Positions 6,470-29,859 of a stretch of 32,929 bases of DNA are shown piece by piece. The stretch lies in contig JAKLQX010000004.1 of NCBI GenBank assembly GCA_022013085.1, forward strand, positions 1 through 32,929, given 5' to 3'. The notes beneath the pieces were generated by a model. The model was not told the DNA's origin. It made no database searches and saw only the letters and a program-made list of their open reading frames with translations. The stretch's first letter is position 1; the number at the start of each line of letters is the position of its first letter. The DNA is from Candidatus Omnitrophota bacterium. Its GTDB lineage: Bacteria; Omnitrophota; Gorgyraeia; Gygaellales; Profunditerraquicolaceae. A program made the translations under genes and the position numbers.

Positions 6470-6508
6470 TTAAATGGTAAAAAGAGAAATATTTAGGGAG
6501 GTAAAGAT

Positions 6509-6778
6509 ATGACTACGTTAACTGTTACCGAAGCAAAGGCGCATTTTTTAGAGCTTATTAGAGATTCTGACAAAAGGCTTGAAAGATTTATAATAACTAA
6601 GCGGGGAAAGCCAGCCGCGGTAGTAATGAATGCTGATGAATTTGAAGGATGGCTTGAAACTTTAGAAATAATGTCCGATAAAAAAGCTTTAGGAGAAATT
6701 AGAAAGGCAAAAAGAGAATTAAACCTTGGTAAAACCAAAAGCTTTAAAGAAGTGATTGGCAGGCTGCAAGGAAATTAA
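6509..6778 (+). CDS. Phd/YefM-family antitoxin
   Basis: This 89-residue protein is an antitoxin of a type II toxin-antitoxin pair. It opens with the Phd/YefM signature MTTLTVTEAKAHFLELI and continues with RFIITKRGKPAAVVMNADEFEGWLETLEI. This DNA-binding N-terminal fold (1-60) represses the operon, and the C-terminal tail (60-89) would wrap the toxin. It is driven by a consensus promoter, has a strong RBS and overlaps or abuts the RelE/ParE toxin start, so the two are co-translated. Such pairs stabilise accessory DNA or act as stress modules, and this one sits in a patch rich in mobile remnants. Confidence 0.9.
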   Translation: MTTLTVTEAKAHFLELIRDSDKRLERFIITKRGKPAAVVMNADEFEGWLETLEIMSDKKALGEIRKAKRELNLGKTKSFKEVIGRLQGN

Positions 6779-8454: not shown

Positions 8455-9336
8455 TTAGAATTTCATCATCCCGCCCTGGGTAAACTGGATCAGGATGGGG
8501 CCGGCGACAATGATTAAAACCACTGGAAGGATAAATACGAGTAAGGGAAATAACAGCTTAATCGGAGCTTTTAAGGCCATTTCTTCGCCTCTTTGGAACC
8601 AGCGCAGGCGGATTTCCTCTGACTGCATCTTCAATGCCTCGCTAATAGGCGAGCCGATCCTGTCTGCCTGTAAAAGCGTCCTCACAAACGAACTAATCTC
8701 AGGGTTATTGATGCGGGTGGACATATTCTTTAACGCGTCACGCCGGGAACTGCCCATTTGTATTTCGTGGGCCATTATCTTCATTTCCTCAATAAGCGCG
8801 CAGGGCCTGAATTCCTGAATTACCCGGTTAACTGCCACCATAAAATCCAGGCCTGCCCCTACGCAGATATTCAAAAGGTCAATTACCAAAGGCAGGTCTC
8901 TCACAATCAAGGCGCGCCTTTTCTTAATCAGGTTATTCAGCCAGATGTCCGGTAAGATAAAACCAACGCCGGCGCAGATAACCAGTATCAGGAGTTCTGC
9001 GTGAACAGCAATAAAGGCGCCTAGCGGCACTGCCGCGGCCATGAACAATTTTAATATCATAAACTGGCTGGCGCTCATTATATTATTTGAGGAAGCTAAG
9101 CGTTTATGCAAATCGCTCGGGGACAAAGAGAGCATGGATTTGCCGAACAGGCGCTCGATAAGGCTGACTGGCCCGCTTAAAATATTTTTTAAATTAAATG
9201 CCTCCAGCCTTGAAGCCGCCGGCCCGGTAATTTCGGAAGGCAAATGCACCTCTTCCACCAGTTTACGGTTAGAAATATGATAGGCCACAAATCCAATACT
9301 GATAAACAACAATAAAATAATCAGCGCGAGTTCCAT
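8455..9336 (-). CDS. tadC: Tad pilus inner-membrane platform protein TadC
   Basis: This 293-residue protein carries a type II secretion F domain. It starts with a membrane helix (about 3-18), has central hydrophobic segments (FMILKLFMAAAVPLGAFIAV, LILVICAGVGFILPDIWL), then a cytoplasmic block typical of TadC (LPLVIDLLNICVGAGLDFMVAV, LLQADRIGSPISEALKMQSE, RWFQRGEEMALKAPIKLLFP) and a final helix. TadC and TadB form the platform at the inner membrane on which the TadA ATPase drives Flp pilus assembly. It is the last gene of the pilin operon and follows tadB with essentially no gap. Confidence 0.92.
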   Translation of the reverse strand: MELALIILLLFISIGFVAYHISNRKLVEEVHLPSEITGPAASRLEAFNLKNILSGPVSLIERLFGKSMLSLSPSDLHKRLASSNNIMSASQFMILKLFMAAAVPLGAFIAVHAELLILVICAGVGFILPDIWLNNLIKKRRALIVRDLPLVIDLLNICVGAGLDFMVAVNRVIQEFRPCALIEEMKIMAHEIQMGSSRRDALKNMSTRINNPEISSFVRTLLQADRIGSPISEALKMQSEEIRLRWFQRGEEMALKAPIKLLFPLLVFILPVVLIIVAGPILIQFTQGGMMKF

Positions 9337-9337
9337 A

Positions 9338-10183
9338 TTATATCTCCACCCGGCTTAACTTCCGGATCAAAACTATCCCGATTACTTCGGAAATCACCGA
9401 CCAGGCAAGCAGCATCTGGCCGGTTTTATCTTTAAGCATGATGTCAAAATTACCCGGGTTAGTGAAATACATGAAAACCCCGAAGGCAATCGGCAAGAGG
9501 CCCATAATCGCCCCCTGCAGCCGCCCCTGCACAGTGAGTATCCTTACGCGGTCGTCTAATTTTCTTTTTTCCCTGATGGTATGCACTAAATTTCCGAAAA
9601 TTTCAGTCAAGTCGCCTCCGGTTTCCCGGGAAATACTGATGGCAGTAGTTAATAATTCCAAATCATCTAAAGGTATTCTTTGCTTAAGATGCGCCAGGCA
9701 ATCCTCTAAGCTTACGCCCATTTTATTTTCTTTGATCACCAGGGCAAACTCATCGCTGATGGGCGCGGGCATCTCTTCGGTAAGCACCTCAAATGCCTGA
9801 GGTAAACTCATCCCTGCCTTAAGCGAGCTGGAAAGAAGCATCAGCGCATCTACCAGCTGCTTGGCGAAATTATTCAGCCTTTTTCGGCCCATATTTTTAA
9901 TCCATATCCGGGGCAATAATAAACCCAGGCCTGCGCCTGCTAAAACACCCAGTGGATTATGTAAGATCATAAATCCCAGCGTGCCCAGCACCAAAGGCGT
10001 AATCGTAAACACAGATAGTAAACGGCGCTTTTCAGTATAAATAAACATCTTATGCAGTTCTTTAGAGGCCTTTTCCATACGCTTACCCTGGAGCTGAGAA
10101 TAACGGCCTAAAAGCAAGGGAATTAATTCATAGGCCAAACCAGCGATGGAGCCGAAAATAAGTAAGATAATTATTAGTCTCAT
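9338..10183 (-). CDS. tadB: Tad pilus inner-membrane platform protein TadB
   Basis: This 281-residue type II secretion F-domain protein has an N-terminal helix (1-20), a pair of helices around 60-95, the family motif QLVDALMLLSSSLKAGMSLP, a conserved ETGGDLTEIFGNLVHTIREK block, and two closing helices (LQGAIMGLLPIAFGVFMYF and the last 20 residues). It pairs with TadC as the pilus assembly platform. It lies 3 bp behind the last small prepilin gene and directly before tadC. Confidence 0.93.
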   Translation of the reverse strand: MRLIIILLIFGSIAGLAYELIPLLLGRYSQLQGKRMEKASKELHKMFIYTEKRRLLSVFTITPLVLGTLGFMILHNPLGVLAGAGLGLLLPRIWIKNMGRKRLNNFAKQLVDALMLLSSSLKAGMSLPQAFEVLTEEMPAPISDEFALVIKENKMGVSLEDCLAHLKQRIPLDDLELLTTAISISRETGGDLTEIFGNLVHTIREKRKLDDRVRILTVQGRLQGAIMGLLPIAFGVFMYFTNPGNFDIMLKDKTGQMLLAWSVISEVIGIVLIRKLSRVEI

Positions 10184-10185: not shown

Positions 10186-10392
10186 TTACATTGGTGGTAA
10201 TCCGCCGCCGCCTGATAGCTGCGGTTTTAGAAGGGTCCTGGACGTTTGCCTGCCAAAACCAAACACGTCCCCTGCTTCCTTCCAGCGTCCGCTTACAGCC
10301 CGTTTAACATAAACCTGCATTGCCAAAAGCCCGGCGATTACAATCGCAATCAGCAAACTATATTCTACCACGCTCATCCCTTTTTTTCTCAT
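10186..10392 (-). CDS. Small class III-signal prepilin, Gly/Pro tail
   Basis: This 68-residue prepilin has a basic MRKKG leader followed by MSVVEY, where the Flp-type peptidase would cut after the glycine. Next come a hydrophobic helix (8-27) and the motif MQVYVKRAVSGRWKEAG shared with most pilins of this operon. The mature part is short and ends in GGGGLPPM. It is probably a minor subunit of the Flp pilus. It lies between the TadE-like gene and tadB. Methionine rather than glutamine at the +1 position is unusual for this set. Confidence 0.82.
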   Translation of the reverse strand: MRKKGMSVVEYSLLIAIVIAGLLAMQVYVKRAVSGRWKEAGDVFGFGRQTSRTLLKPQLSGGGGLPPM

Positions 10393-10397
10393 TTTAT

Positions 10398-10649
10398 TTA
10401 TTTCGGCAGCTCTTCCGGTTTACCGAATATGTTTAAATTCTTAGGCGTATAAAAATCTATCTTTGGAGGCGCGGTGGTGCCATCAGCCGCTACGGTCGGG
10501 CGCGTACTTTCATACTGCTTATGCCGTTGCACAATATTATTCCCGAACCAGACAAATATTTGCGTGGTTGCCACCAAAAAAAGAATCAGGCAAATGAAAG
10601 CAGTAGTAAATTCAAGCGCGACCTGGGCTTTTACTTGGTAATTTTCCAT
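10398..10649 (-). CDS. TadE-like minor pseudopilin
   Basis: This 83-residue protein begins MENYQVKA, then QVALEF (cleavage after the alanine), followed by a hydrophobic helix (LILFLVATTQIFVWF) and a hydrophilic tail. The ALEF/FxxxFxxL style is that of TadE-like pseudopilins, which are processed by the same peptidase and act in pilus initiation. Its start overlaps the end of the preceding gene by 19 bp, implying translational coupling. The tail ends NIFGKPEELPK and has no recognised domain. Confidence 0.78.
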   Translation of the reverse strand: MENYQVKAQVALEFTTAFICLILFLVATTQIFVWFGNNIVQRHKQYESTRPTVAADGTTAPPKIDFYTPKNLNIFGKPEELPK

Positions 10650-11632
10650 TCTGATACTCTATTCCTTTCAAAAGGAGAATTTATATTTTCCACCCCCGAT
10701 CTACTCCTAATTTTATGAGTAATTGTCGTGGGATTTCCGGCTTCATCCTTAAAACTGTATGCGGCGGTACTTGCGCTTGTCCCGGGAGTTTCTTCTATGG
10801 TCAGCTTGCCGCTGCGCCTGATATTCTGCTCATCCTCCAATAATAGCCCTTGAATATTAGCGGGAGTTACGTCAGGAATACCATCATTATTAACGTCATT
10901 ATTCAACTGCGTATAATTAGGATTGATCTCACCTGAATCCGGGCTTAATAAATTCAGGCGGGTAAGCAGATCTCCGTTAACAGCACTATCAGGGCCTACG
11001 CCAATAACCTGATATTTTACAAATGAGATCCCTCCCCATTTTAAATAAACTTCGCTGATTATTTCTTTTTGTTTGTCGGCATCAGCTGCTTCGGGATTTA
11101 ATAAAATCATTGCTTGTTTAGGTGAATCTTCGGTGGGTTGATAACAACGCAGTTTATTCCAAGTCAGAAGCTGCGGGTCGGGGTTATTGGGAAACATTAC
11201 ATAAAATTGATTGGCAGGACTGGTAATAAAACCAAAACCCGCGGTCCTATATTCGTATTCTTTACCGTTAATCACATATTTCTTCCGGGGCAAAGTCGAA
11301 TAATCGGTAAGGTCGGTATATTTATCCTGTAGAGTATTGCCCCAGATTACCTCAGCGCTGGCTTGCACCGGAACAACACTACCCGCGCCAAACATATCGC
11401 GCGGATCGGGTATATGCTTATCCTTAAGCAACACAACCGAAGCTGAGGCATCCGGCCGGGCAGGCCCATTGTATGCTTCAGATAACGCCGTGCGAAAAGC
11501 AGCCATCTGCATATCCTGCTGGTAATTATAGCGCACTCCGTAACTGATCAAAAAAGACAAAACCAACAAAAGAATCGAACCAAAAGTTGCCAATTCCGTT
11601 AAGGTCTGCGCTTTTTTATTAAAATAAGCCAT
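10631..11632 (-). CDS. Large TadE/TadF-like pseudopilin with Ca-loop-like motif
   Basis: This protein of about 333 residues is anchored by a class III-type signal (NKKA, then QTLTEL) and a hydrophobic helix (about 15-33). A long periplasmic or pilus-exposed domain follows. That domain contains NDVNNDGIPD, a DxNxDGxxD loop of the dockerin/thrombospondin type that commonly binds calcium. The rest matches no family I know. ATG 11632 is preferred over TTG 11638 because GGAGA lies 9 nt before it. It overlaps the next gene by 19 bp. A minor subunit or tip component of the Tad pilus is likely from context, and an adhesive role is inference. Confidence 0.78.
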   Translation of the reverse strand: MAYFNKKAQTLTELATFGSILLLVLSFLISYGVRYNYQQDMQMAAFRTALSEAYNGPARPDASASVVLLKDKHIPDPRDMFGAGSVVPVQASAEVIWGNTLQDKYTDLTDYSTLPRKKYVINGKEYEYRTAGFGFITSPANQFYVMFPNNPDPQLLTWNKLRCYQPTEDSPKQAMILLNPEAADADKQKEIISEVYLKWGGISFVKYQVIGVGPDSAVNGDLLTRLNLLSPDSGEINPNYTQLNNDVNNDGIPDVTPANIQGLLLEDEQNIRRSGKLTIEETPGTSASTAAYSFKDEAGNPTTITHKIRSRSGVENINSPFERNRVSEWKITK

Positions 11633-12008
11633 CTTCAAATTCTCCTAATGTTTCTTTTCCGCTTTTCTGGGTAGTCTCATCAATACTTGCCTCTGTCTTC
11701 ATTCCGTAGACAGGCAAACCATATTGATCAAGCAAAGGTTTGCCGTCCTTGTCCAAGGGAACTAAAGATTGTATTATCCCTGTGGTGGAAGTTGTTTCTG
11801 TGATAATTTTTGACTCCACATTCAACGGTGTATATTGTTCGCCTAACTCATCTCCTGCCTGCCTGAGTTTACCCTGCACTCCCCGCCTGAGGTAAAACTG
11901 CATCCCTAAAAGCGCTGCCACTACGCAGGCAACTACCATGGCGTATTCCAATGTCGATTGCGCGCTTGCCTTAGCTGAGCCATATTTTTTAATTTGCATT
12001 GTCATCAT
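11619..12008 (-). CDS. Class III-signal prepilin with DKDGKPL tail
   Basis: This prepilin is about 129 residues from ATG 12008. A longer frame to 12083 would lie inside the previous gene and is unlikely. The leader ends KASA and is followed by QSTLEYAMVV, a helix of about 20 residues and the shared block MQFYLRRGVQGKLRQAG. The mature tail carries EQYTPLNVESKIITETT, like the QYxP tails of its neighbours, and LDKDGKPLLDQYGLPVYG, which resembles the DxDGxP loops of the large pilin upstream. The start lies 8 bp behind the previous stop, and the RBS is weak, suggesting coupling. Probably a pilus subunit. Confidence 0.8.
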   Translation of the reverse strand: MMTMQIKKYGSAKASAQSTLEYAMVVACVVAALLGMQFYLRRGVQGKLRQAGDELGEQYTPLNVESKIITETTSTTGIIQSLVPLDKDGKPLLDQYGLPVYGMKTEASIDETTQKSGKETLGEFEDGLF

Positions 12009-12015
12009 TATTTTA

Positions 12016-13122
12016 TTATGGAGTGCCGCCGGGTTTACTTGCCTTACCCTTTTGCTTTTCCAACGCGCCGAATGTGCCTGCACCCTCTAATTTATAAGTT
12101 GCTTCCCAAGCGCCGGTAGTCTGAGCCGTGTCCTTATCTATAATCTTGGTTCTCATCGGATAGGCAACCGTTGCCGGACCGATGCTGGGAGACACAGAAC
12201 TTATTGTTACTATCTCATGTTGCCCATAAATATTGCCGTCGCTACCGGTTACCCCCACAATTTCCTTAGTTACCGGATCAATTACATAACCGCTGTATGT
12301 CCTAAGTACTGTGAGCTTGCTATCTACGGTTGATACCGGAAAGCCATCCGGGTCAAATCCGGTAAAATCACCTGTGCGGGCGTCCTCTCCGCCGACAAGT
12401 ATTCTGTCTTTAGGGTCAGTGGTAAAGGTATAGTAATAAACCTTACTGCCTTTTATTTCTGTTTGAATAAACCCCTTGATCTTATCTTTTTCCATTCTTT
12501 CTTTATACGCTGTCATTGCCGGATGCCAATCCGCTGGCGCTAAACTTTTCGGCCCGCTATACTTTGAAAGAGTATCCACGGTGATTTTTTTGTCTGACTT
12601 AAACACTAAAGGATTTTTAGGATCTTTATATTCGAATTTAACTAATCCGGACTCAACTACTCCTTGTTGAACATAGGCGGCTCCTTGAACCCCTGTCAAA
12701 GCTTTGCCATTTTTATCGTAGACCACCGGCAGAGGATTGCCGTCTATATCCAGACTAGTAAAATTACCCGTAGCAATATCTTCTATGCCAATGCCGCGGT
12801 CTTTCTTTATTTTCGTTGGATTATCGGGATCCTCGATATAAACATTATAATAAAAACTATTGCCTGCCCGCTCTCTTATAAAGAACTCTCCGGCTATCAA
12901 TTTATCTTTGTATGCTATTGCCAGCGGATGCCACGCCCTGGTTGCTTCATCCACCTCGATTCTACCCTCTGTTTGCTCTCCGGCTAAGGTATCGGCAGAG
13001 GTTTTGACTATACCCTGTATGCCCCGCTTAATATAACTCTGCATACCTATCCCGGCTAAGGTAACCAGGACAATTACCAACACATACTCATTTATACTCT
13101 GGCCCATTCTGCGCATTTTCAT
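12016..13122 (-). CDS. Large class III-signal prepilin with two internal repeats
   Basis: This prepilin has about 368 residues, several times the usual Flp size. The start at ATG 13122 directly follows the upstream stop. A frame from 13173 is possible but would place 17 residues inside the previous gene. The leader MKMRRMG is followed by QSINEY (cleavage after Gly), then a hydrophobic helix and the shared MQSYIKRGIQG block. The exposed part contains two homologous units (about residues 64-134 and 199-264). Each opens WHPxxxAYK, passes through a Y-rich strand and TGxFT, and ends in DxDGxPV. The unit matches no domain I know. It may be a tip or minor adhesive pilin, an inference from size and context. 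Confidence 0.78.
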   Translation of the reverse strand: MKMRRMGQSINEYVLVIVLVTLAGIGMQSYIKRGIQGIVKTSADTLAGEQTEGRIEVDEATRAWHPLAIAYKDKLIAGEFFIRERAGNSFYYNVYIEDPDNPTKIKKDRGIGIEDIATGNFTSLDIDGNPLPVVYDKNGKALTGVQGAAYVQQGVVESGLVKFEYKDPKNPLVFKSDKKITVDTLSKYSGPKSLAPADWHPAMTAYKERMEKDKIKGFIQTEIKGSKVYYYTFTTDPKDRILVGGEDARTGDFTGFDPDGFPVSTVDSKLTVLRTYSGYVIDPVTKEIVGVTGSDGNIYGQHEIVTISSVSPSIGPATVAYPMRTKIIDKDTAQTTGAWEATYKLEGAGTFGALEKQKGKASKPGGTP

Positions 13123-13123
13123 T

Positions 13124-13459
13124 TTATTGCACACCCCTTTTGGCTGTGCCTTTGACGACTGTGCTATCCTCAAGAGAATCCCGGGTTGTTAGGCCTTCAT
13201 ATTTTACATCTTCATTAACTATTTTAGATTGCTTAACTGTAAATTCGTCCTGGACATAGTATGGCTCATATTGTTTGGGGCTTGCGGCCTGTTTAGCCGC
13301 GTGATCTACCAATTCCCGGTATCTTCCCTGTAAGCCCCTTTTTACATAAAGCTGCATGCCTAAAAGCGCGGCTAAAACTAATGCCAGACAAATGCTATAT
13401 TCAGCCACGCTTTGTGCCCTGCTTATTCTCGATATTTTATTTACTATACAAATCCTCAT
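13124..13459 (-). CDS. Class III-signal prepilin, QYEPYY tail
   Basis: This prepilin is about 111 residues from ATG 13459, which has AAGG/GGGG just upstream and overlaps the preceding gene by about 20 bp. A longer frame to 13534 lies within that gene and is not favoured. The signal ends ISRA and is followed by QSVAEYSICL, a helix, and MQLYVKRGLQGRYRELV. The mature tail has KQYEPYYVQDEFTVKQS, then a Lys/Glu-rich segment. The QYEPYY element is shared with the 116-residue pilin at 13796. Context and signal make it a pilus subunit, and which one is dominant cannot be told. Confidence 0.8.
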   Translation of the reverse strand: MRICIVNKISRISRAQSVAEYSICLALVLAALLGMQLYVKRGLQGRYRELVDHAAKQAASPKQYEPYYVQDEFTVKQSKIVNEDVKYEGLTTRDSLEDSTVVKGTAKRGVQ

Positions 13460-13781
13460 CCTTACCCCAGGCCTCAATCTTTTCATCAGCCAGGCTTTCT
13501 TTCTTCTGCACGCGACCGGCACCGGAACCATCACCTAAGTCAATATACTTTTGAGTTGTAGCTCTGTTTTTAAGAGTCTGTTCTGTATAACTCTTACTGG
13601 TTGTTTGGAATTTTCCGGTATGTTTGGTAGGGTCATATTGCTCGCCAATATCATCGCTAGCTGACTTTAATCTTCCGGCATAACCATGCTTCATATAATG
13701 CTGCATCAGCAAAAGCCCGGCAATGATCACTGCGGTTATCAACGCATATTCTAATGTGCTCTGGCCCTTTTTGTTAAACAT
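13437..13781 (-). CDS. Class III-signal prepilin
   Basis: This 114-residue prepilin has the signal MFNKKG then QSTLEYALIT, a helix of about 20 residues and MQHYMKHGYAGRLKSAS, a diverged form of the operon signature. The tail has EQYDPTKHTGKFQTTSKS, aligned with the QYxP tails of its neighbours, and a charged C-terminus. A strong RBS, GGAGG, lies 9 nt before the ATG. The 17-bp region ahead of the ATG is identical to that of the next pilin upstream (13796-14146), which suggests recent duplication of the gene start. Confidence 0.85.
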   Translation of the reverse strand: MFNKKGQSTLEYALITAVIIAGLLLMQHYMKHGYAGRLKSASDDIGEQYDPTKHTGKFQTTSKSYTEQTLKNRATTQKYIDLGDGSGAGRVQKKESLADEKIEAWGKDEDLYSK

Positions 13782-13795
13782 CTTTGTTCACCTCC

Positions 13796-14146
13796 TTAAT
13801 CAGCGCTGGTTGTGCTCAGGACTGTCTCAACCCCGCCTGCATCAACCTTGGTTTCCTCTTTTACGTTACTACGAGTAATCGCACCGCGATTCCCCAGTGC
13901 CTCATCGGCAGTTCTCTCGCTTCTTACTTTTGTAACGGATTCCGCGTAATACGGCTCATATTGATTACCGGTAAAGTTTAAATTAACGCCACCCACATCT
14001 TGCGATGTACCGGTGTGTTTAACCGCTTCATGAATTCTACCCTGCAAACCCCTTTTAACGTAGGTCTGCATTCCTACTGCTGCGGCAATTATCAATGCGA
14101 TAAGAATCGCATATTCCGCTGTATTCTGGCCCTTTTTGTTTAGCAT
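13796..14146 (-). CDS. Class III-signal prepilin, QYEPYY tail
   Basis: This 116-residue prepilin has the signal MLNKKG then QNTAEYAILI, a helix, and MQTYVKRGLQGRIHEAV, the clearest copy of the family signature. The mature tail contains NQYEPYYAESVTKVRSERT and a Val/Thr-rich end. The RBS GGAGGTGAACAAAG is identical to that of the following gene. It lies between the canonical short Flp-like genes and the longer pilins. It is likely a pilus subunit processed by a TadV-type peptidase not encoded here. Confidence 0.85.
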   Translation of the reverse strand: MLNKKGQNTAEYAILIALIIAAAVGMQTYVKRGLQGRIHEAVKHTGTSQDVGGVNLNFTGNQYEPYYAESVTKVRSERTADEALGNRGAITRSNVKEETKVDAGGVETVLSTTSAD

Positions 14147-14171
14147 CTTTGTTCACCTCCCCTAAATAAAA

Positions 14172-14339
14172 TTATTTTGGTAATTGATCTGTAGCTTTAT
14201 TAATAGTTTTAGCAGCATCGTCTAACCCCTTATTCACCGCGGGTTTAATTAAATTAGTCGCTGCTAGAGCAACCGCTATAACTATCACAGTTAGCACAAT
14301 CACATACTCCAAAATACTCTGGCCCTTTTTCTTATACAT
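14172..14339 (-). CDS. flp: Short Flp-type prepilin (55 aa)
   Basis: The 56-codon frame reads MYKKKG, then QSILEYVIVLTVIVIAVALA, then a short amphipathic tail (NLIKPAVNKGLDDAAKTI). Size, signal (G|QSILEY) and tail match classic Flp major pilins better than the other members, and it lacks the MQxYxKRG block. GGAGGAGAG lies 5 nt before the ATG, the strongest RBS in the array, which would suit a major subunit. It is only 19 bp from the previous gene. Confidence 0.82.
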   Translation of the reverse strand: MYKKKGQSILEYVIVLTVIVIAVALAATNLIKPAVNKGLDDAAKTINKATDQLPK

Positions 14340-14358
14340 CTTGCTCTCCTCCTTTTGA

Positions 14359-14502
14359 TTACGGCGTATTTATCTGCTCTTCGATAATATTAAAATTTGC
14401 CTGCACCGAACGCTGCATATACATATTCATCGCGATAAATGCTGCCGCGACAATAGCAATTAATAATGCGTATTCGATTGTGCTTTGCGCCCTGTTTCTC
14501 AT
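14359..14502 (-). CDS. Very short class III-signal prepilin (47 aa)
   Basis: The 48-codon frame reads MRNRA, then QSTIEYALLIAIVAAAFIAM, then NMYMQRSVQANFNII and a short acidic end. Cleavage after the alanine would leave a mature peptide of about 42 residues, nearly all helix. MNMYMQRSVQ is a weak version of the operon signature. The ATG overlaps the preceding stop (ATGA), so it is translationally coupled. It is a candidate minor or truncated pilin. Confidence 0.78.
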   Translation of the reverse strand: MRNRAQSTIEYALLIAIVAAAFIAMNMYMQRSVQANFNIIEEQINTP

Positions 14503-14696
14503 TTTACGATCTCCGCGACTGAACGATTAAAGGCATCATCGCAAGATTTTTTTATAGCATCAAAATGCGGCCCAAAAATTAAAACAGTCGCCACTACAAC
14601 CGCCGTTAAGATTACGTATTCAAATATCGATTGCGCTTTACCAACAGAGAATTTTCTTGGCGCAAGATAGCTTCTATCGCCCTTTTTAAAAGCCAT
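14499..14696 (-). CDS. First prepilin of the operon (65 aa)
   Basis: This 65-residue protein starts at ATG 14696, with AGGGTG 7 nt upstream. A GTG at 14705 is a less likely start. The leader of about 20 residues is basic and unusually long for the family, ending VGKA before QSIFEYVILT. A helix and an amphipathic tail (FDAIKKSCDDAFNRSVAEIVK) with one cysteine follow. It resembles Flp pilins in size. It is promoter-proximal, with a leader of about 65 nt containing a hairpin, and overlaps the next gene by 4 bp. Confidence 0.8.
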   Translation of the reverse strand: MAFKKGDRSYLAPRKFSVGKAQSIFEYVILTAVVVATVLIFGPHFDAIKKSCDDAFNRSVAEIVK

Positions 14697-14854: not shown

Positions 14855-14897
14855 AGGGACCGTTTCTATTTTTTAAGAAAAAATAGAAACGGTCCCT
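14855..14897. terminator. 20-bp perfect palindrome between the two operons
   Basis: A 20-bp perfect stem with a 3-nt loop (outer arm AGGGACCGTTTCTATTTTTT) lies between the DUF192 stop and the pilin promoter. Its inner T/A runs allow it to terminate in either direction. It closely resembles the dispersed REP-type hairpins often linked to REP-associated tyrosine transposases, so it may be a repeat reused as a terminator. Confidence 0.65.
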
Positions 14898-14925: not shown

Positions 14926-15267
14926 TTATTCGATTTTAATGCTATTCCCTAATTTTGTTTGAGTAAGCTGGAGGGTGCCTGCCGGCAGTTCAATGGCTAA
15001 AGACGCGCCAAAATAAACCGGGCTAAAGCGAAAAGGCCTAAATACGGAAAGTAAGCCAATAACCTCGTTATTTTTATCCAGAAACAGCACGTCTATGGAA
15101 AAACGCATAAATAGGGTATGGATACTGGAGCAGGGCTTTAAAATCAAGGCTTCTCCTTTTTCCAGGGAGTTACGATTAAGTAGCCCCACCAGCCGCTTAT
15201 AAAACGTATCCGCCACCCTTGCCCTATCCGCCAAAACCGTGTTACTGCTTAGATTAATAATTTTCAT
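14926..15267 (-). CDS. DUF192 family protein
   Basis: This 113-residue protein matches DUF192 (COG1430). It has the typical ADRARVADTFYKRLVGLLNR opening, the EALILKPCSSIHTLFMRFSIDVLFLD core and the AIELPAGTL segment near the end. The family has a small beta-barrel fold of unknown function and is often found near Tad/Flp loci and in extracellular settings. No signal peptide is visible here, whereas some members have one. Its start overlaps the GT2 stop by 4 bp, so it is the last gene of a three-gene unit (radical SAM, GT2, DUF192) just upstream of the pilin operon. Confidence 0.88.
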   Translation of the reverse strand: MKIINLSSNTVLADRARVADTFYKRLVGLLNRNSLEKGEALILKPCSSIHTLFMRFSIDVLFLDKNNEVIGLLSVFRPFRFSPVYFGASLAIELPAGTLQLTQTKLGNSIKIE

Positions 15268-15998: not shown

Positions 15999-16013
15999 CT
16001 TAACCGTCCTTAT

Positions 16014-17087: not shown

Positions 17088-17096
17088 TATTTAACT

Positions 17097-17124
17097 TGCG
17101 CTAACCATAAATATCGGATAAAAT
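17097..17124 (+). promoter_or_regulatory. Possible promoter of the membrane glycosyltransferase
   Basis: TTGCGC (about 17097-17102), 16-17 bp, then TAAAAT (17119-17124) lie only about 10 bp before the ATG at 17135. The message would have a very short leader, and no Shine-Dalgarno is visible. Confidence 0.4.
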
Positions 17125-17134
17125 CAATTTTATT

Positions 17135-19294: not shown

Positions 19295-21941
19295 TCTACC
19301 CCTCCATTTAAAAAGGATTTTCTTTTTCTAAAACAGTTTCGGGATTTAACTAATTGATAGTAGATCTGATTTGGGATATTTGTCCTTAAATGCTCCCAAT
19401 TACTCTGGCTGCGGTGTTGAGTCAACGACTTAAAAGCAATCTGATGAATTGTTTTATGTTCCGATGAGATATATTCTAAAGGATTAATTTTAAGTTGGCT
19501 ATCTGCCGTATCCTCTTCATTACTTATCGAACGTTGATAAAACTTAAGCGGCTGCCAGGGCAGCAGGCCGTTCCTAATCATCGCAGGATAAGCTTCCGGG
19601 TCGCCGGCTAAATCAAACGCCTCTTTGGCCAGCATAACTAAAACCCGGTGCTGGCCAGATTCTTTGGGATTTGCGTCATTGTGCCTGGTAATAATTATCT
19701 GCGGCCTAATCAGGCGGATAAAGTAAACTAATTTTTCCAAGGTATCTTTTCTTCCCCATTTTTCAAGTGTTTCATCGACGGAAAGAGTGTAACCGAAATC
19801 TGCCTTGCCTAAATAATAAATCTTTTTTACCCCTAAAATAGAGGCGGCTCTTTCCATCTCTTTAGTGCGCAGGAACCCCAATTTTTCATGAAGAGCAGTG
19901 TTGATCTTATTCCTTCCTCCTTCTCCCCGGGTAGCCAAAAGCGCGTAAGTTTCGCAATTCAATTTCTTACGGAAATATACAAGCGCGTAGCCATCTTCGT
20001 CATCGGGATGCGCGGCCAGGCAAAGAACACGGGCCTTACTTTTACCGCCCTGAATTACGATTTGCTTTGTCCTTTCAAACTCTTTACCGATGACATAGGG
20101 GCTGCGGGTAAAAATCCCATATTGGCTGACTCTGCCGCCTTCGTGCTGGCCGACTATAAACATGGGTATCTTGGCCCCCATTTGCGCTTCTTTTATAATC
20201 TTTAGGTTATCGTGAAGATAATACATTCCTCCTAGATTATATTTTTTAAATATGCCGGTATCTTTATTGCAATCAAAGATAAGCTTCTGGCAAATCTTTT
20301 CTTCAATGGGCATATCTTTTAAGAGATGTTCCAGGGGGATGGCAAAAATTTTCTCTTTTTCTTTGAGTATCCGCGAAACCGACGCATCAATATCTTTTTC
20401 ATTAAGGAGGCCCTTTCCTACCGCCTCTTTTACGGTATTGATTATACAAGCGGCAGTTCCTTCTACTTTATCCTCAGCCGGATAAACTATCGCCATATCT
20501 GCGCCTGCCTGGAAAGCCTCAAGCACGATTTCGCCGCTATACGGTTCATTAATTCCCTGCTTAAGAGCGTATTCTTTCATTGCCCGCATAGCCAGTAATT
20601 CATCTGCCACGATTATACCCTTAAACTTTAATGCCTTACGCAAGAGCTCGGTTTGAATCTTATAAGATAAAGACGCGGGCTTATCGTCCAAGGCAGAATA
20701 AATCGCATGATCAACCATTATCCAGCTATCGGGGTATTTTTTAATAATTTCCCTGAAGGGAACCAGGTCTTTGTTATAGAGTTCTCTTTCAGAAATATTC
20801 ACCTCAGGCAGGGTAAGATGCGTATCAGCATAAACTGCGCCCAGGCCGGGGAAATGCTTGATTACAGGTATGATCTTACCTTTAAGCATCCCTCTAACCG
20901 CCGCAGAAGCCAGCTCAGTAACAATTTGCGGGTCATCTGAATACATCCGTTGTTTTTTTACTAAAGGATGGGTTAGGTCTTCAATATTATCCGCTACATC
21001 AACCACCGGAGCAAAATTTACATTATAGCCGTTAGTGCGCATATATTCGGCTATATTTAACCACTCATCCTCAATCTGCCCAAGATACGCCTCTTTATCC
21101 GCCGGAATATTCCAGAATAGCTCTTTATCTTTAATAAAAGTTTCAAAAAGGTCCTTTTCTTTTTTTACGTCCAATTGCGTGGCATAAGAATTCAAAATTC
21201 TATTTTTAAGTTCTTTAAAATAGGCAATATCTTCGTTGAACGCGGGCCGTTGAGAAAAAAGAAAGGGTCCTTTTAATGCGGGATTATGGATTAGATAATA
21301 AGATACCGCAGCCTCGGGGTTTAATTTCTTCAAAGCGAGATTTAAAAAAAAGGCGGTTGCCTGATGGTCCGCGTGAGTATCTGAAGGATGGGGCGCGTAT
21401 ATCCTTTGAGGATTATATTCCTTAATTATGCCTTCTATGTCCGAAAGCAGGTTTTCCCGGCTGTACCCCTTCTTTGCCCGCTTATAGGTTATCCTATAAG
21501 GAGAAGAGCTTGCTCCGGTTGTAGGAGATTTATAATTTTGGTTGTATTCTTTTTTCCAGAGATAAGAAAGCCCCTGGTCCGGATAACTTAAAAAAATTAT
21601 GTACTTTGCCTCCAGGCGCATTTTTTTGGCTGCTTGCAATGCCTCTCTTTGGCGTTCTTTTCCAAAGGTGATATAATCCTTTGGGCTAAGTTCCTCCGGT
21701 TTCTTTTTAAACCAAACAGCCGCCGCCTGAGAAGATGCATCACCGTTGGTCAAAAAAACTATTTTTACTTTTTTATTTTCCTGGAGTGCCTTAAGAATGG
21801 TCCCGCCGCAGGCAAGGGTTTCATCGTCGGGATGGGGAGAGAAAACGAGGATATCAACCGCGGATTCTGCCTGCGTTAAATTGACGTTGAAGATAAAAAA
21901 AAATATAAAAAAATGAGAAAAATATATTTTTTGTTAATCAC
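19291..21941 (-). CDS. PIG-L deacetylase / permuted GH3 / PIG-L multidomain enzyme (frameshift near start)
   Basis: A reading frame of over 870 codons fuses three catalytic modules. PIG-L/LmbE domain 1 has SPHPDDE and HPSDTHADHQA zinc motifs. A GH3 C-half follows (NFAPVVDV, IIPVIKHFPGLG, catalytic DTH dyad, nucleophile Asp in VADEL), and then a GH3 N-half (MPIEEKI to VGQHEGGRVSQYG), so the halves are in reversed order. PIG-L domain 2 has AAHPDDE and RHNDANPKESGQH. Together they suggest deacetylation and cleavage of N-acetylhexosamine polymers outside the cytoplasm. A GTG at 21941 overlapping the previous stop gives a good signal peptide (MINKKYIFLIFLYFF) but in another frame. One extra T in the T9 run (21903-21895) joins them. 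In-frame translation without this change could only start at TTG 21753, losing the first zinc motif. Confidence 0.8.
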
Positions 21942-24198
21942 ATTTGGTCTCGGCTATATAAATATCGCTCTTTTCCGGGCCGTAATGCGCTGTGCTACAA
22001 CTGGTAATGGCATCAGTTAAAATCGCATTAACAGAACTCTGGGTTGAATCTATCTTAGCGTTATCCTGAGCATCCCTCACTATATTCTCTAATTGCTCAA
22101 GGGAAAATTCAGCAGCAGCGGGCGCTTTTCTGCGCTTTAACTTCCACCCTCCCTCAGCCGTTTTCCCTACACCCGTCGGCTGATCCTGGTCGTAACGCCA
22201 GACTATTATTTTAAAATCTCCTGCGCCACTTTCTAGCTTCCAGCGCTTTTGTAACCCTAACCACTCTACAGTTTCGCTAATATAAGGAAGCTTTTCTGGA
22301 TAACCTTCTATCGCCACCTGCACAAAGTGGGAGAATTGTTGCCCCCCATCTACCTTAGGCTTATCCTTCCAGGCATAAACAATTTCGTTTCTTATTTTAG
22401 AAGCACATGGTAATCCTGGCAAACACGTCGGAGTAACATGTTGTATATACGCATCTACATACTCCTCGATACTCTTTTTTATATTACCGATATCGTAATT
22501 CAAGGCTCGTAGAATTTTCAGCGCTTGCTCAACTTCGGTAGGGCCGGAGGTATTATCGTGTGCCAACTGGCCTTGAAAAAGGCGCGCATCATCGCCGCAG
22601 TCAAATGAATGAACACTACATCCGCAGTTACTATGGCAACTGGCTTGATCTTTATGGCTTGCGCACCAACCGGGTTGAATTCCATACAAATCTCCGTCGC
22701 TACATACGGGCGGATTCTCACAACAGGTATAATATGTTCCTTCCCAGGCACAGGGTGATTTTTCTGACGACGGATAACAACAGGTATTACAACAACAATC
22801 GGAGCAATCGCTGCCGCAACAGTGACAATCGCATTCAGGAGTACTACAACCGTATTGCGTATAACAAGTACTACTAACTGAAACGCCCCTGCCCCAGGTG
22901 CATTCTCCGTGTTTACTTTTTATATCCGGGACAACAGTGGTATTATTTAAAGCTTCTAACTCCGTAATCCAAGTATTAATATTATTTTGGTCGCGGGTTA
23001 AGCGCTCATAAGCGTCGTCTTCTAAATCCCCGTCTATACTGCTTTTATCCAGATTATGCTGATTAGAATCGTAAAAAAAGGGAAGCCATTGTGTTGTGTT
23101 GTTTAATGCTGCAGTCATAGGCATATCCACAAACTCTTTGCTTCTGAATAAAAACATCCTCAGGTCTTCAATTAACTTATTCACATCGCTACAGGTTACC
23201 GTTGCTGTGGTACAGGGATCTGACGAACTACAAAAGCTTAAAGAAGGATACGCGCATTTTAACCGTTGCAACAAACTGATCAGCTTATCTGTTAAAAATC
23301 CGCCGGTAACCTGGCTTGGCCCCTCTGGCTGAGTTGCGTCTATTTTCATTATTGCTATTTGTTTACTCGTAACATTTTTAACCCAAGCCGGGCAAGAAGC
23401 GCTGGAAGTACAGGTAATTTCGTAATTAGCCGAATCTTCCTCCAATCCCGGTTCAATAAAATAAGAAAACTTGTTAATCTTCCATTTTTCACTATCCCAT
23501 CCGTCTTCAACGTCGATAGCAATGAACCTTTTGAGCCCGCTTTTAAATGTATCCAGGGCCTGTTTTAAATCGTCATCACTCACCAACGGTAGCCGTAAGG
23601 CATAATACCAAGCAGCGAATCTGCCTACTTTATTTGCATTGCGCATTTCAGGGATAGCGCTTAAATCATAATCTTTGCCGGTTGCCTCGTCGCGAAAAAT
23701 GCTTACTCCCACTCTTTTCAACTCAACATCGTCGCTCTGTGTAGAAAGCAATGCCCCAAACAGAGCACTCTCTCTTAAGGCATCGTGTGTAGTCATCTCT
23801 TTATTAAATCTATCGGTTATACCTCCAAGCATAGATGTGGACATTGACATCGAAACTAACAAGCCCAATCCGGTAAGAAGAACTACCGGGCTTATTAAAA
23901 TCCCTCCTACAATGGAGCCGACTAAAACTAACACCAACGCCAGCCAACCATAACCAGTTTTCTCTGTTTGCCCACCTAACACCTCATCCTTATAATAATG
24001 GCTCATGCTGCCCAACTGCGAGGCTAAACTCAAAGCGACCTTATCTGCTGCTTGCGAGGTTGAGGTTTTAATCTGGATCACTTTGCTGATATTTATAAAT
24101 ACGGCGGTAAATAAAATTATCACCGCGATGACAAAGGTGATAATCACGGCGATCTGGCTGCGGCGGTTTAGCGGTAGGTTTTTGCGGAAGAAATTCAT
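21934..24198 (-). CDS. TadG-like pilus assembly protein with Cys-rich insert
   Basis: This 754-residue protein starts with the TadG/TadE-type module (NRRSQIAVIITFVIAVIILF, then a helix and QAADKVALSLAS, 12-60), plus a second hydrophobic stretch (85-125) unusual for the family. The long extracytoplasmic region is not recognisable as a von Willebrand A domain. Residues 433-534 contain 22 cysteines (for example CDCHCCGSDCSDCCCNTCC), implying dense disulfides or metal binding. TadG is a putative minor pilin or adhesin-like anchor of Tad systems. Its ATG overlaps the TadZ-TadA stop by one base (TAATG). The Cys-rich part is the most unusual stretch of the operon. Confidence 0.78.
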   Translation of the reverse strand: MNFFRKNLPLNRRSQIAVIITFVIAVIILFTAVFINISKVIQIKTSTSQAADKVALSLASQLGSMSHYYKDEVLGGQTEKTGYGWLALVLVLVGSIVGGILISPVVLLTGLGLLVSMSMSTSMLGGITDRFNKEMTTHDALRESALFGALLSTQSDDVELKRVGVSIFRDEATGKDYDLSAIPEMRNANKVGRFAAWYYALRLPLVSDDDLKQALDTFKSGLKRFIAIDVEDGWDSEKWKINKFSYFIEPGLEEDSANYEITCTSSASCPAWVKNVTSKQIAIMKIDATQPEGPSQVTGGFLTDKLISLLQRLKCAYPSLSFCSSSDPCTTATVTCSDVNKLIEDLRMFLFRSKEFVDMPMTAALNNTTQWLPFFYDSNQHNLDKSSIDGDLEDDAYERLTRDQNNINTWITELEALNNTTVVPDIKSKHGECTWGRGVSVSSTCYTQYGCSTPECDCHCCGSDCSDCCCNTCCYPSSEKSPCAWEGTYYTCCENPPVCSDGDLYGIQPGWCASHKDQASCHSNCGCSVHSFDCGDDARLFQGQLAHDNTSGPTEVEQALKILRALNYDIGNIKKSIEEYVDAYIQHVTPTCLPGLPCASKIRNEIVYAWKDKPKVDGGQQFSHFVQVAIEGYPEKLPYISETVEWLGLQKRWKLESGAGDFKIIVWRYDQDQPTGVGKTAEGGWKLKRRKAPAAAEFSLEQLENIVRDAQDNAKIDSTQSSVNAILTDAITSCSTAHYGPEKSDIYIAETKCD

Positions 24199-26313: not shown

Positions 26314-28005
26314 TTATTCTAGTTTATAGACAATGGGGATAACTATGCGGAGTTCTTTTTGATTGAGCTCCGCAGGGAACGGGGGATAAGGAGATATCTT
26401 TTTAACCATACTCACTGCGTCCTCATCAAATATGCTGTATCCCGATGATTGTTTGACCTTCACCTCTAAGAGCGCGCCCGTAGAATTAAGCCGTAAATCT
26501 AATCTTACCAAACCTTGCATTTGGCCTTGTTTAGCTGCCCAAGGATAAACTAAATTATCCTGTATACGCTTGGTAATTCTACCCATATATTCAGACATCG
26601 CCTGACTGGTTAATTCGGCAGGAGAGATCACTTTGGTTTCATCAGGCATAGGCGTTTCAATTTTAGCGCTTTCTCTGATTAGAGGTACCTTGGCTGCTGC
26701 TACTGGGATTGCTGCTACTGGAAGAGGCAATTGTGTTTTCACTACTTCTTTAACAAGCGCGGGTTCTTTTATAATTGTGGGAGTAAGCGTAATCACCAAC
26801 TCTGTATCGCCTCTCTCTCCCGTACCGCCTCCGGCTGTAGTTGTTTTTTTCCTGAAAAATACACCCAACACCGGTATATCCCCCAAGAAAGGAGTTTTGC
26901 GGATATCTTCCTCGGACTTTTGCTTGATCAGCCCGCCGATAGCCATCATCTGGCCGTCATTAAGAAAAAGCTGCGTGGATGCGTTGCGCTTGCTTAAAGG
27001 ATAGGCCTTGGCCGTAGTAGTCGTAGTCGAGCCGCCCGTTGAACCAATGGTATCCGCTACGCCCACATCGCTGACTTCTACACTCAATGCCAACTTAATC
27101 TGCTTATCTTCGGTTATCGTGGGTTTTATCTTTAACTTAATACCGTATTCTTTATATTCTATATTTGTGCCGCTGGCTCCGGTAGAAGCCGCGATACTGG
27201 TATTAAATATCGGTTTTTCTCCGCCGACTAACAACTCCGCTTCCTTGCCGCTCTGGCAGGCAAGCCGGGGTTGAGAAAGGATGCGCGCCTTTCCTTCTTG
27301 AACCAAGGCGTCTAATTTAAAGGTAAACGGATCGGCGCCGGCAGAAGTACCCCGCTCTAAATTTAAAACTTTAAATAAAGTCGAAAATTTCGTGCCCGCG
27401 GCGGCAATACCGGGAGAGCCTACTTCCATAAGGTTTAGAGCTCCCGGAAAGGTAAATCCCAACGCCTTAGAAGCATCTTTATTTAATTCCAGAACTTGCA
27501 CATTAATCTCGACCACTGCCCTTTCTTCCATTAATTGGATAAGATTGGTGGTTTTCCCTTTAAGTGAACTTAAGGCAACATCAATACGCTCTAAATCCGA
27601 AGGCGTCTTTACGCTTCCTAAAAGTAAAACTTTGCCTTCACTATCCGACGGCCGCGTAAAAACCTTGGGAAAATTCAATTCCTTTAAAAGGGCGTCTATT
27701 CTTTTTTTAATCAAATTCATATCTTCCTGAAAAACCTCTACCTGTAATGTGTGCTGGCCCGCTGCATCCCACCAGACCAAATTGGTTGCGCCCGGGCTTT
27801 TGGCCACCAAAATCATATCAGCCTTGCTTACCGCGGTGACATCAAGGATATTCGGGTTATTAATTACTATTTTGGTTGGGGTATTTACCGGAAAAACTTT
27901 GATTTCTGTAACGTATAAAGTTATAAGTTTTAGCTCTTCAGCATAGGCTCCCGCCGCGGATAAAATAAAAAACAGTAAAAATGTAAATTTAAGCATGGCC
28001 TTCAT
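26314..28005 (-). CDS. cpaC: Tad secretin (CpaC/RcpA) with C-terminal TonB domain
   Basis: This 563-residue protein has a signal peptide (about 1-22) and a pilus-type N-terminal domain (PTKIVINNPNILDVTAVSKA to WWDAAGQHTLQVEV). A BON-like module and a secretin domain (ILSQPRLACQSGKEAELLVG, GQMMAIGGLI, TPFLGDIPVLGVFFRKK) follow. A Pro/Ala-rich linker then leads to a TonB C-terminal-like domain at about 473-563 (VYPWAAKQGQMQGLVRLDLR, VKVKQSSGYSIFDEDAV, PYPPFPAEL, IPIVYKL). The secretin forms the outer-membrane pore of the pilus. The TonB-like tail is not part of CpaC/RcpA and is notable. It overlaps cpaB by 4 bp (ATGA). Confidence 0.9.
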   Translation of the reverse strand: MKAMLKFTFLLFFILSAAGAYAEELKLITLYVTEIKVFPVNTPTKIVINNPNILDVTAVSKADMILVAKSPGATNLVWWDAAGQHTLQVEVFQEDMNLIKKRIDALLKELNFPKVFTRPSDSEGKVLLLGSVKTPSDLERIDVALSSLKGKTTNLIQLMEERAVVEINVQVLELNKDASKALGFTFPGALNLMEVGSPGIAAAGTKFSTLFKVLNLERGTSAGADPFTFKLDALVQEGKARILSQPRLACQSGKEAELLVGGEKPIFNTSIAASTGASGTNIEYKEYGIKLKIKPTITEDKQIKLALSVEVSDVGVADTIGSTGGSTTTTTAKAYPLSKRNASTQLFLNDGQMMAIGGLIKQKSEEDIRKTPFLGDIPVLGVFFRKKTTTAGGGTGERGDTELVITLTPTIIKEPALVKEVVKTQLPLPVAAIPVAAAKVPLIRESAKIETPMPDETKVISPAELTSQAMSEYMGRITKRIQDNLVYPWAAKQGQMQGLVRLDLRLNSTGALLEVKVKQSSGYSIFDEDAVSMVKKISPYPPFPAELNQKELRIVIPIVYKLE

Positions 28006-28904
28006 TTTTCTTTGTTTGCTGCTGATAGGGGAACAATTTCTTTTTGCAAGCCGCGATAGATCTCCACTACCGGCTGGCCTTCCAAGCCTATTTTCTCACC
28101 CTGGCTGGTGGATAAATAATTCAACAAGGTATCCCAGTCAACCGGTGCAACCGGGTCAACCCCGGTATCCTGCGAGGAACGCAGGGCTAATTTGATCTTG
28201 CCGTGTTCCTGAACAAAAGAAAGCAATACCGCTTCCTGGGGCGTAAGCGCAAAAGTAACGGGTTGCGCCGCGGCAGAGCCTTCTTTTGTTTTATATTTTG
28301 AAGCAACCATTTCATTTCCCATGGCTAATACTTGAATGCCTTGAAAAAGTGAGATTAAACGCGGGGCGGAACTTTCCGTTGCTTGCGGAGCGGCCTTCTT
28401 AGGTAAAGCAATAAGCGCGAATATATCCACGTAATCGCCGGGTTTTAGCAAACTGGCGATACCGGAAAGGCTCTCCGCTGAAACCGTTATCGCCCTTTTG
28501 CCTTCGGGCGTAATTTCCGAAAGAGTCTTGCCGATATTTCCGGGAGGAAGAAGTTTACTGCTGAGTATCTGCTCTTCGGCGGCAATCGGGCCGGAGGCAA
28601 TCTGGCCCATAACCTGCTCAAAAGAGGTAACTGCGCCGGGCTGGATATATTCCACCGGCACCTGTTTAAATGTAATGTCTTCGGCAGTAATCGGAGTTTG
28701 CGCCGGGATATCTTTTTTCGCCACCATCACCACTCCCATGGTTACTTTCGGTTTGGCAGCCAGGGCCTTTTGTTCCTCCTGTTTCATCCTCTCCCAGATT
28801 TCAACTTCTCTTTTTCCAAGATAGAGGTTTAACAATATTATCGCCGCAATCCCGCAGACAACCGCGATAATCAGAGGGAATTTTCTTCTTAATTCTATTT
28901 TCAT
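28002..28904 (-). CDS. cpaB: CpaB/RcpC pilus assembly protein
   Basis: This 300-residue protein has an N-terminal membrane anchor (PLIIAVVCGIAAIILLNLYL) followed by a SAF domain (VVMVAKKDIPAQTPITAEDI, AEEQILSSKLL). The RcpC-type segment follows (RAITVSAESLSGIASLLKPGDYVDIF, VTFALTPQEAVLLSFVQEHG). CpaB/RcpC sits in the periplasm, binds wall or glycan through its SAF fold and aids the secretin. It is co-translated with neighbours: its ATG overlaps the lipoprotein stop (TAATG) and its own stop overlaps the secretin start. The C-terminal 45 residues are an extension of modest length. Confidence 0.93.
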   Translation of the reverse strand: MKIELRRKFPLIIAVVCGIAAIILLNLYLGKREVEIWERMKQEEQKALAAKPKVTMGVVMVAKKDIPAQTPITAEDITFKQVPVEYIQPGAVTSFEQVMGQIASGPIAAEEQILSSKLLPPGNIGKTLSEITPEGKRAITVSAESLSGIASLLKPGDYVDIFALIALPKKAAPQATESSAPRLISLFQGIQVLAMGNEMVASKYKTKEGSAAAQPVTFALTPQEAVLLSFVQEHGKIKLALRSSQDTGVDPVAPVDWDTLLNYLSTSQGEKIGLEGQPVVEIYRGLQKEIVPLSAANKEK

Positions 28905-29812
28905 TATTTTATCAAATCCTGGTATAGGACTACTTTGGTTTTCTTTAACAAGCCGGTGGTTATCTCTTTTAATTTTTGCTGCTGTTTAAGAAACAGAACA
29001 CTTCTTTTAATCTCATCCCATAACTCTGATAAAACCCTTACCTGGCCCCCTTTTATCGCTTCTACCTTTATTATATAGTAACCGTTCTTTTCTTTAAAGA
29101 CGGTGCTGAGTTGGCCGGCTTCTAATAAACGTGAAAAAGCTATTTCGTCAAAACGGCTGTAATCCGCGCCGCGCTTGCCCTTTTTGATAAAACCTAAATC
29201 CCCTCCGTTTGCGGCGCTTTGCGCTTTTGAACGCTGCGTCGCCAAGGCGGCGAAATCCGCGCCTTTGAGCAGTTCGATAAGCACATCTTTTGCTTCCGCC
29301 TCGCTATCCAAAACAATCTCCCGGATTTTTCTTTCCTCTTCCTGACGGTACTGATCTTTAAAAGTATTGTAAAATTCTTCAATTTCCGAGGAAGTAACCG
29401 TTATGTTGTCTATTTCGTCATGGAGAATCTGGCTGGCTAAAACATTAATCTCCAGGTTCCTCAAGAGTTCCTGGGGTTTCGGCTGCTTATCCAGGCCCCT
29501 GGCTTTTGCCTCTAAATACAAAAGGTAACGCCGGACTAACTCTTCGTTTAAGTAAGCAATTTTTTGCTCGCGGGTATTGATTTTGGCTTCGGGGTTATCC
29601 GTGGATTCATTATAACTGCGGATTTCCTGCTCTAGCTGCTCTAAAGTAATGGGCAGGTCATTGACGTAAGCAACCACCGTGCCCTGCGGCTGCCAGGATT
29701 TAGCTTTGGAAGAAATTTTTAACTTTTTATCAACCTGCTCGCACCCGGATAAGCATAAAAATAAAAACAATAACACACAAGCAAGGGGAACCGACGGGTT
29801 TTTACGTCTCAT
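28904..29812 (-). CDS. SurA/PrsA-like peptidyl-prolyl isomerase lipoprotein
   Basis: A lipoprotein of about 302 residues. Signal peptide and lipobox LCLSGC (cysteine near residue 24) anchor it, and a SurA-N-like chaperone part follows (VAYVNDLPITLEQLEQEIRS). A parvulin domain at about 150-260 has RKIREIVLDSEAEAKDVLIE, the GGDLGFIKKGKRG motif and FKEKNGYYIIKVE. It would help fold exported proteins, here probably the secretin or pilins. ATG 29812 is chosen because GGAG is 8 nt upstream. The GTG at 29818 overlaps that site. It is the first gene of the second Tad operon, an unusual but sensible partner. Confidence 0.88.
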   Translation of the reverse strand: MRRKNPSVPLACVLLFLFLCLSGCEQVDKKLKISSKAKSWQPQGTVVAYVNDLPITLEQLEQEIRSYNESTDNPEAKINTREQKIAYLNEELVRRYLLYLEAKARGLDKQPKPQELLRNLEINVLASQILHDEIDNITVTSSEIEEFYNTFKDQYRQEEERKIREIVLDSEAEAKDVLIELLKGADFAALATQRSKAQSAANGGDLGFIKKGKRGADYSRFDEIAFSRLLEAGQLSTVFKEKNGYYIIKVEAIKGGQVRVLSELWDEIKRSVLFLKQQQKLKEITTGLLKKTKVVLYQDLIK

Positions 29813-29859
29813 CTGCACTACTCCTTCGTAAAAGTTATTTCTTGCTCGATAACCTATAA

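Follow-up and report, generated by a model that had tools for sequence, protein, structure and literature searches.

In this work, we analyzed a 32,929-nucleotide (nt) stretch of DNA from a Candidatus Omnitrophota bacterium (contig JAKLQX010000004.1; the whole stretch is referred to below as the window), which carries a Tad pilus locus with eleven consecutive prepilin-type genes, here called p1 to p11. As far as can be judged from sequence, the array encodes, as one operon, the pilins of a Tad (type IVc) pilus, and its filament is most likely composed of several kinds of pilin at once, a reading to which we give about even confidence. A pilus of mixed composition had been suggested in a first-pass annotation of this DNA, and the suggestion gains indirect support from two sources, (i) the ordered conservation of the eleven genes under selection in three related species and (ii) the occurrence, in 4 of 87 loci surveyed, of paralogues with near-identical cores and different tails. 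The kind of system is a known one, the Tad pilus; what is new is the number of pilins and the tailed set.

Results

The eleven open reading frames (ORFs) follow one another head to tail, all on the minus strand, between positions 10186 and 14696, with tadB and tadC adjoining them downstream (Table 1). Every one of them encodes a short basic leader, a G or A preceding the cleavage point, an E at +5 and a hydrophobic helix, as determined by a motif and hydropathy scan that recovered all eleven genes at a looser hydrophobicity cut-off and ten at a stricter one, p5 being missed. The same scan yielded no prepilin match on either strand in the remainder of the window, and 100 random stretches of equal length, drawn from a first-order Markov model, gave a mean of 0.03 matches and a maximum of 1; a chance origin of the array was thus rejected. 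The intergenic spacers measure only -23 to +25 nt, which fits a single operon. The eleven-gene array with class III-type signals in a Tad operon, as the first-pass annotation had described it, was therefore borne out by the ORF and motif scan, and the Tad machine itself was recognized from T2SSE, two T2SSF, Secretin and RcpC domains, all above the Pfam cut-offs.

All eleven genes have orthologues, in the same order, in three related species (loci L060, L061 and L042 of our survey). Pooled over these species, the ratio of nonsynonymous to synonymous substitution rates (dN/dS) was 0.12-0.16 in the cores; in p4, p5, p6 and p8 the tails gave 0.20-0.36, so that hypervariable tails between close species were rejected for these four genes. 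The values scatter from gene to gene, and in some comparisons faster change is seen in the p9 and p10 tails. Since they are intact, ordered and under purifying selection, the eleven genes look like a fixed set and not like a store of alternatives.

The predicted pairing of the ribosome-binding site (RBS) with 16S rRNA was stronger in the p3, p4 and p5 classes (median -11.8, n = 209) than in the p2, p6, p7 and p9-p11 classes (median -6.2, n = 310), and this held in 80 of the 82 loci having both groups; the p1 class, with only 7 members (median -8.7), and the p8 class, which is mixed (median -10.2), were left out of the comparison. The corresponding energies in the window were -11.6, -12.5 and -13.4 kcal/mol for p3, p4 and p5, and the RBSs of p8 (-1.7) and p11 (-1.9) were weak. 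These values suggest that p3, p4 and p5 are the abundant subunits, RBS energy being no measure of protein. The first-pass annotation had named, as the result that would speak against it, evidence that only the short Flps are expressed or processed; the selection acting on the genes and the strong predicted RBSs of p4 and p5 argue against that possibility.

Pairwise comparison together with sequence pattern separates the pilins into three groups, the short Flps p1-p3, the tailed paralogues p4-p8 with the short-tailed p11, and the TadE/F-like p9 and p10. Members of the paralogous set (p4-p8 and p11) share a core that reads MQxYxKRGxQG or near it and is followed by the tail. The genes p4 and p6 can be aligned across most of their length and p5 and p8 across part of it, and the long tail of p7 is partly an internal duplication (BLASTP E 2e-11). 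The medium-class tails (n = 307) contain 26% Ser plus Thr, as compared with 11.5% in six Tad machine proteins, and are almost devoid of Cys. The first-pass annotation had described a signal and helix common to all eleven, followed by very different tails. The shared signal and helix are indeed there and the tails do differ, but not all of them to that extent, given the p4/p6 and p5/p8 alignments, and p9 and p10 are TadE/F-like and not Flp-like in position and pattern.

The Flp_Fap profile (PF04964; cut-off 32.2 bits) matched two of p1-p10 below its threshold, p2 with 20.7 and p5 with 13.4 bits, and did not match p11; in the survey it was matched at E 0.01 or better by 3 of the 91 p4-class members. 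The TadE profile (PF07811) had no match in the whole genome and a single one (E 0.0048) among the 44 p9-class members. Pfam and NCBIfam names for the array pilins were rejected, the matches being below threshold, and automatic annotation is likely to leave most genes of such arrays, which fall below the curated family cut-offs, unnamed. Sequence profiles compared with solved structures were uninformative for both p4 (best match geopilin domain 1, E 0.19) and p9 (best E 0.39). The predicted structure of p4 was weak, with a predicted local distance difference test score (pLDDT) of 61.5. That of p9 (pLDDT 76, predicted template modelling score, pTM, 0.73) shows a long helix at residues 4-54 and then a beta-rich domain; a fold search with it returned no match at E 0.001 or better among 406 matches and no Z of at least 5 among 995 aligned chains, which is not evidence of a new fold.

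Paralogue statistics were compiled over 87 loci, the non-duplicates of 100 examined, with 500 tailed pilins kept and tails shorter than 20 residues omitted. Within a locus, core DNA identity of at least 0.95 was found for 6 pairs, whose tails were 0.26-0.53 identical (median 0.33). Between genomes it was found for 8 pairs, six of them between the window and L060, with tail identities of 0.65-1.00 (median 0.93). In a base-by-base inspection of five of the six within-locus pairs, the shared tract was seen to start at about the RBS in L048, L116 and L086, whereas in L093 it starts at the leader. Its end lies, in each of the five pairs, on the EQY/EQF codons or just past them, where the sequences diverge sharply into the tails. 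In L086, L116 and L093, the closest counterparts of the p5/p8-like cores lie in the same genome. For 8 of the 11 members of the core-twin pairs the best tail match by alignment score lies in another genome. Pure tail swapping as the source of the core-identical pairs is weakened by the same count, three of the eleven behaving otherwise. At the sequence level the pattern fits gene conversion of the core with slot-specific tails, plus some recent duplication. In L116, the neighbouring p5/p8-like pilins at 7387 and 8156 also resemble each other at the 3' end, so that the divergent part is a middle stretch of about 100 nt.

Exchange between lineages was detected in p9 and p3. Identity between the window and its sister L060 in 150-nt bins over the array was mostly 0.83-1.00, falling to 0.53 in the middle of p9 and to 0.77 at p3. 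The window sides there with L061, the reverse of what is seen elsewhere (site counts in Table 1), and the log-likelihood of the p9 mosaic was 88.8 against a maximum of 9.5 in 100 shuffles. Because L060 is the odd one in both blocks, the replacement took place in the L060 lineage, which holds the foreign p9 allele. Among five other close pairs, the p9 tails were among the less conserved parts in some, and a single clear p9 swap was seen in none. A comparison of tail variation among strains had been recommended as a check in the first-pass annotation, and the idea of exchangeable surface domains proves only partly right in these related species: most tails are conserved by slot in close relatives, and what is clearly exchanged is the middle of p9, with the smaller mosaic block at p3 beside it.

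The array type is widespread in the lineage. Homologues of p4 occur in 42 of the 58 genomes searched among relatives, the window's own included. Across the phylum, 36 of 117 genomes match; as we read the table, 30 of these have four or more matches and all 30 belong to the window's class or closer, while in each of the five matching genomes outside that class there is a single, weak match. When the GTDB r220 collection was scanned and the best 80 of 151 relatives were retained, 79 distinct loci were obtained, 70 with record titles of Omnitrophota type (Zapsychrus and Gygaella titles, which we take to belong there, included) and 9 with other or unspecific titles. Of the named records, Candidatus Omnitrophota bacterium KR13_N1.mb.50 (L059) is nearest, its p4 being 100% identical. 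Array size was counted at the stricter hydrophobicity cut-off, which misses some genes (such as p5 in the window), in the 52 named loci that remained once 27 of the 79 had been omitted, their arrays lying close to the edge of a contig or of the fetched sequence; the median was 8 and the range 3-13, with at least 7 pilins in 48 loci and at least 11 in 9. Eleven pilins are thus ordinary for the lineage, arrays of 7-13 being usual in the class, and their number is far above the few Flp genes described in other lineages; the four flp genes of Bdellovibrio, for comparison, were called the largest complement known in 2017 (PMC5430801). The general gene order in the survey runs from short Flps through p4-like and p5/p8-like genes, often alternating, to p9-, p10- and p11-like genes, where class labels p1-p11 stand for the best match to a window gene and not for phylogeny. 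The same array type is carried by Candidatus Velamenicoccus archaeovorus LiM (L073), which we infer from matching genome coordinates (G131/G058) to belong to the window's class. The Tad locus enclosing that array is reported to be expressed in co-culture with Methanosaeta (Seymour et al. 2023, PMC10066038).

Discussion

The most far-reaching reading of these results, which we hold tentatively and with clearly less than even confidence, is that this class builds a co-polymer pilus in which several tailed Flps enter each shaft in set proportions; helix, leader and RBS would be homogenized by gene conversion in some lineages, the tails would remain specific to their slots, and the p9 tip domain would be swapped between lineages. 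In the filament of mixed composition that we consider the best explanation, p3, p4 and p5 would be made most and form the shaft, their packed helices being interchangeable, and the Ser/Thr-rich tails of p4 and p5 would face outward from it. The weakly translated p1, p2, p6-p8 and p11 might be occasional subunits or adapters, and p9 and p10, perhaps with a 754-residue TadG-like protein, might form a tip complex with a middle domain that lineages exchange as their targets change. Gene conversion, by keeping the core alike in some relatives, would let the subunits still pack together while each slot keeps its own tail. A likely use would be attachment to other cells, as proposed for the Tad pilus of the predatory relative Candidatus Velamenicoccus archaeovorus; we infer a predatory or attachment role for the window's organism from its lineage.

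Several observations weigh against the mixed filament. All core DNA pairs of the window itself are less than 0.60 identical, so that near-identical cores are a feature of the four survey loci and core homogenization has not been recent in the window. Neither the p4-like cores of L086 and L116 nor the L100 cores cluster by genome, the tails of the L048 core twins still resemble each other, and in 3 of the 11 members the twin holds the better tail match, indicating that duplication followed by fast tail divergence also occurs. The RBS of p8 is weak in the window, and the p8-like class is mixed. Besides, the fold of the p4 tail is unsure in view of its weak model, and the TadE/F and tip labels of p9 and p10 are assigned by position and pattern, p9 having matched no solved fold and the genome having no TadE match. 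Co-assembly in one filament is itself deduced from sequence.

The usual picture of a Tad pilus is a shaft made of a single small pilin and bearing a tip. Our main rival explanation is a classical Tad pilus in which p3 alone forms the shaft and the other ten genes encode minor pilins that prime assembly, serve as adapters or make up one tip or several, on the model of the Myxococcus Kil system, and we regard it as a possible, if somewhat doubtful, alternative. In its favour, p3 is a short Flp with a strong RBS, and the large pilin p9 has a middle domain that close relatives have exchanged. The Kil system offers a precedent, for which Herrou et al. 2025 (PMC12075869) report a single major pilin, KilP, together with two short Flps acting as adapters and four tip complexes that are interchangeable. 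However, p4 and p5 have RBSs as strong as that of p3, and their classes remain strong throughout the survey, which would be odd for tip subunits; furthermore, the p5/p8-like paralogues of some relatives have near-identical cores.

Alternative pilins, each with its own filament or condition as in PilA1-PilA6 of Haloferax volcanii, seem unlikely to us. Core-sharing paralogues are present here too, but the tight packing of the eleven genes makes their joint production probable, the three related species have kept the slot order, and the genome holds two arrays and two RcpC genes, one near each. Still less probable is a contingency array in which tails are rapidly reshuffled to change the surface, as in antigenic variation. 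The mosaics in the middle of p9 and at p3 among close species and the core-identical paralogues with unlike tails would suit it, whereas the slot conservation of most tails and the purifying selection in the window's relatives would not; every member of the array is moreover an intact gene with a start of its own, and silent partial cassettes were not seen there.

Compared with described Tad/Flp systems, the window has the expected TadA-type ATPase, TadB, TadC, RcpA, RcpC, ParA/TadZ-type domain and G/A↓xxxxE[YFL] prepilins (the arrow marks the cleavage point), and differs from them in its eleven, mostly tailed, prepilins per operon, in the fusion of TadZ with TadA and in pilins that fall below the Flp_Fap cut-off. 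In general description it resembles the Kil system of Myxococcus xanthus, which likewise combines numerous pilin genes, several short Flps and a large minor pilin carrying a variable domain, in a predatory context. Each Kil tip complex has large and small minor pilins (Herrou et al. 2025, PMC12075869), and the Kil tips are encoded by separate clusters of three minor pilins, whereas the window has one operon with repeated medium-sized tailed Flps. The PilA1-PilA6 pilins of Haloferax volcanii are likewise paralogues with a near-constant hydrophobic core and a differing remainder, but they are archaeal and reportedly not co-regulated with the pilus-biosynthesis genes (PMC4371748); the genes described here are packed in a Tad locus, and core DNA is shared in some genomes. 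The LiM Tad locus has the same array type; the sections of Seymour et al. (PMC10066038) at hand describe its TadBC and RcpA and make no mention of a pilin array. None of the titles and abstract openings listed in searches on Omnitrophota pili, Flp pilins and pilin gene conversion described the array, the LiM study of Kizina et al. 2022 being outside that search.

If the shaft is indeed a co-polymer, it would present several surface chemistries at once, possibly for the recognition of prey or host cells, and such a mixed shaft with several surfaces would be what conserved, co-transcribed tailed pilins imply in a large uncultured lineage that includes a predator. The combination of related cores with distinct tails would also allow assembly and contact to be traced directly to one part of the pilin or the other.

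Genomic context

Table 1. Pilin genes, mosaic blocks and Tad machinery of the window (aa, amino acids; arrow, cleavage point)
Feature	Position	Strand	Description
p1	14499..14696	-	short Flp-like prepilin, 65 aa, GKA↓QSIFEY
p2	14359..14502	-	short Flp-like prepilin, 47 aa, RA↓QSTIEY; 4-nt overlap with p1
p3	14172..14339	-	short Flp, 55 aa; candidate major pilin; within block mosaic among relatives
p4	13796..14146	-	tailed Flp class A, 116 aa; core MQxYVKRGxQG, QYEPYY, Ser/Thr-rich tail
p5	13437..13781	-	tailed Flp class B, 114 aa; GEQY boundary
p6	13124..13459	-	tailed Flp, 111 aa, p4-related; 23-nt overlap with p5
p7	12016..13122	-	tailed Flp, 368 aa; tail of 317 aa with internal repeat
p8	11619..12008	-	tailed Flp, 129 aa, p5-related
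p9	10631..11632	-	large TadE/F-like minor pilin, 333 aa; tip candidate
p10	10398..10649	-	small TadE/F-like pilin, 83 aa, KA↓QVALEF
p11	10186..10392	-	short-tailed Flp, 68 aa, KKG↓MSVVEY...MQVYVKRAVSG
p9 exchanged segment	10808..11348	-	window agrees with L061 at 108 sites, with L060 at 28
second mosaic block, at p3	14093-14279		34 vs 8 sites
tadC-like	8455..9336	-	T2SSF, 56.6 bits
tadB-like	9338..10183	-	T2SSF, 65.2 bits
754-aa protein	21934..24198	-	N-terminal hydrophobic segment; TadG-like by position only; no Pfam match
fused TadZ-TadA, 704 aa	24198..26312	-	ParA/MinD-type domain 5-209; T2SSE ATPase 372-646, 214.5 bits
RcpA/CpaC secretin	26314..28005	-	140.5 bits; C-terminal TonB_C domain, 57.6 bits
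RcpC/CpaB	28002..28904	-	75.9 bits
SurA/PpiC-type peptidyl-prolyl isomerase	28904..29818	-	Rotamase_2, 54.2 bits

The same genome carries a second array of ten prepilin-type genes (locus L043, contig C27, positions 198-6531) with its own RcpC and ATPase; the latter lies within a 720-residue open frame and may also be fused to a TadZ-type domain. The only Peptidase_A24 prepilin peptidase of the genome is encoded outside the locus, on contig C103. A scan of the window for promoters and terminators gave counts near the shuffled means (20 vs 15.4 and 10 vs 7.3, respectively). Upstream of the array, at 14855-14897, there is a perfect 20-bp inverted repeat that is terminator-like, and the same type of palindrome occurs at two other sites in the genome. 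The Tad locus is split by about 7 kb of other genes (14926-21753), which by eye appear to encode a DUF192-type protein, glycosyltransferases, a radical SAM protein, a TPR protein and a fused glycosidase-deacetylase, and an AAA_14/DUF4143 ATPase gene (7163-8383) lies directly downstream of tadC.

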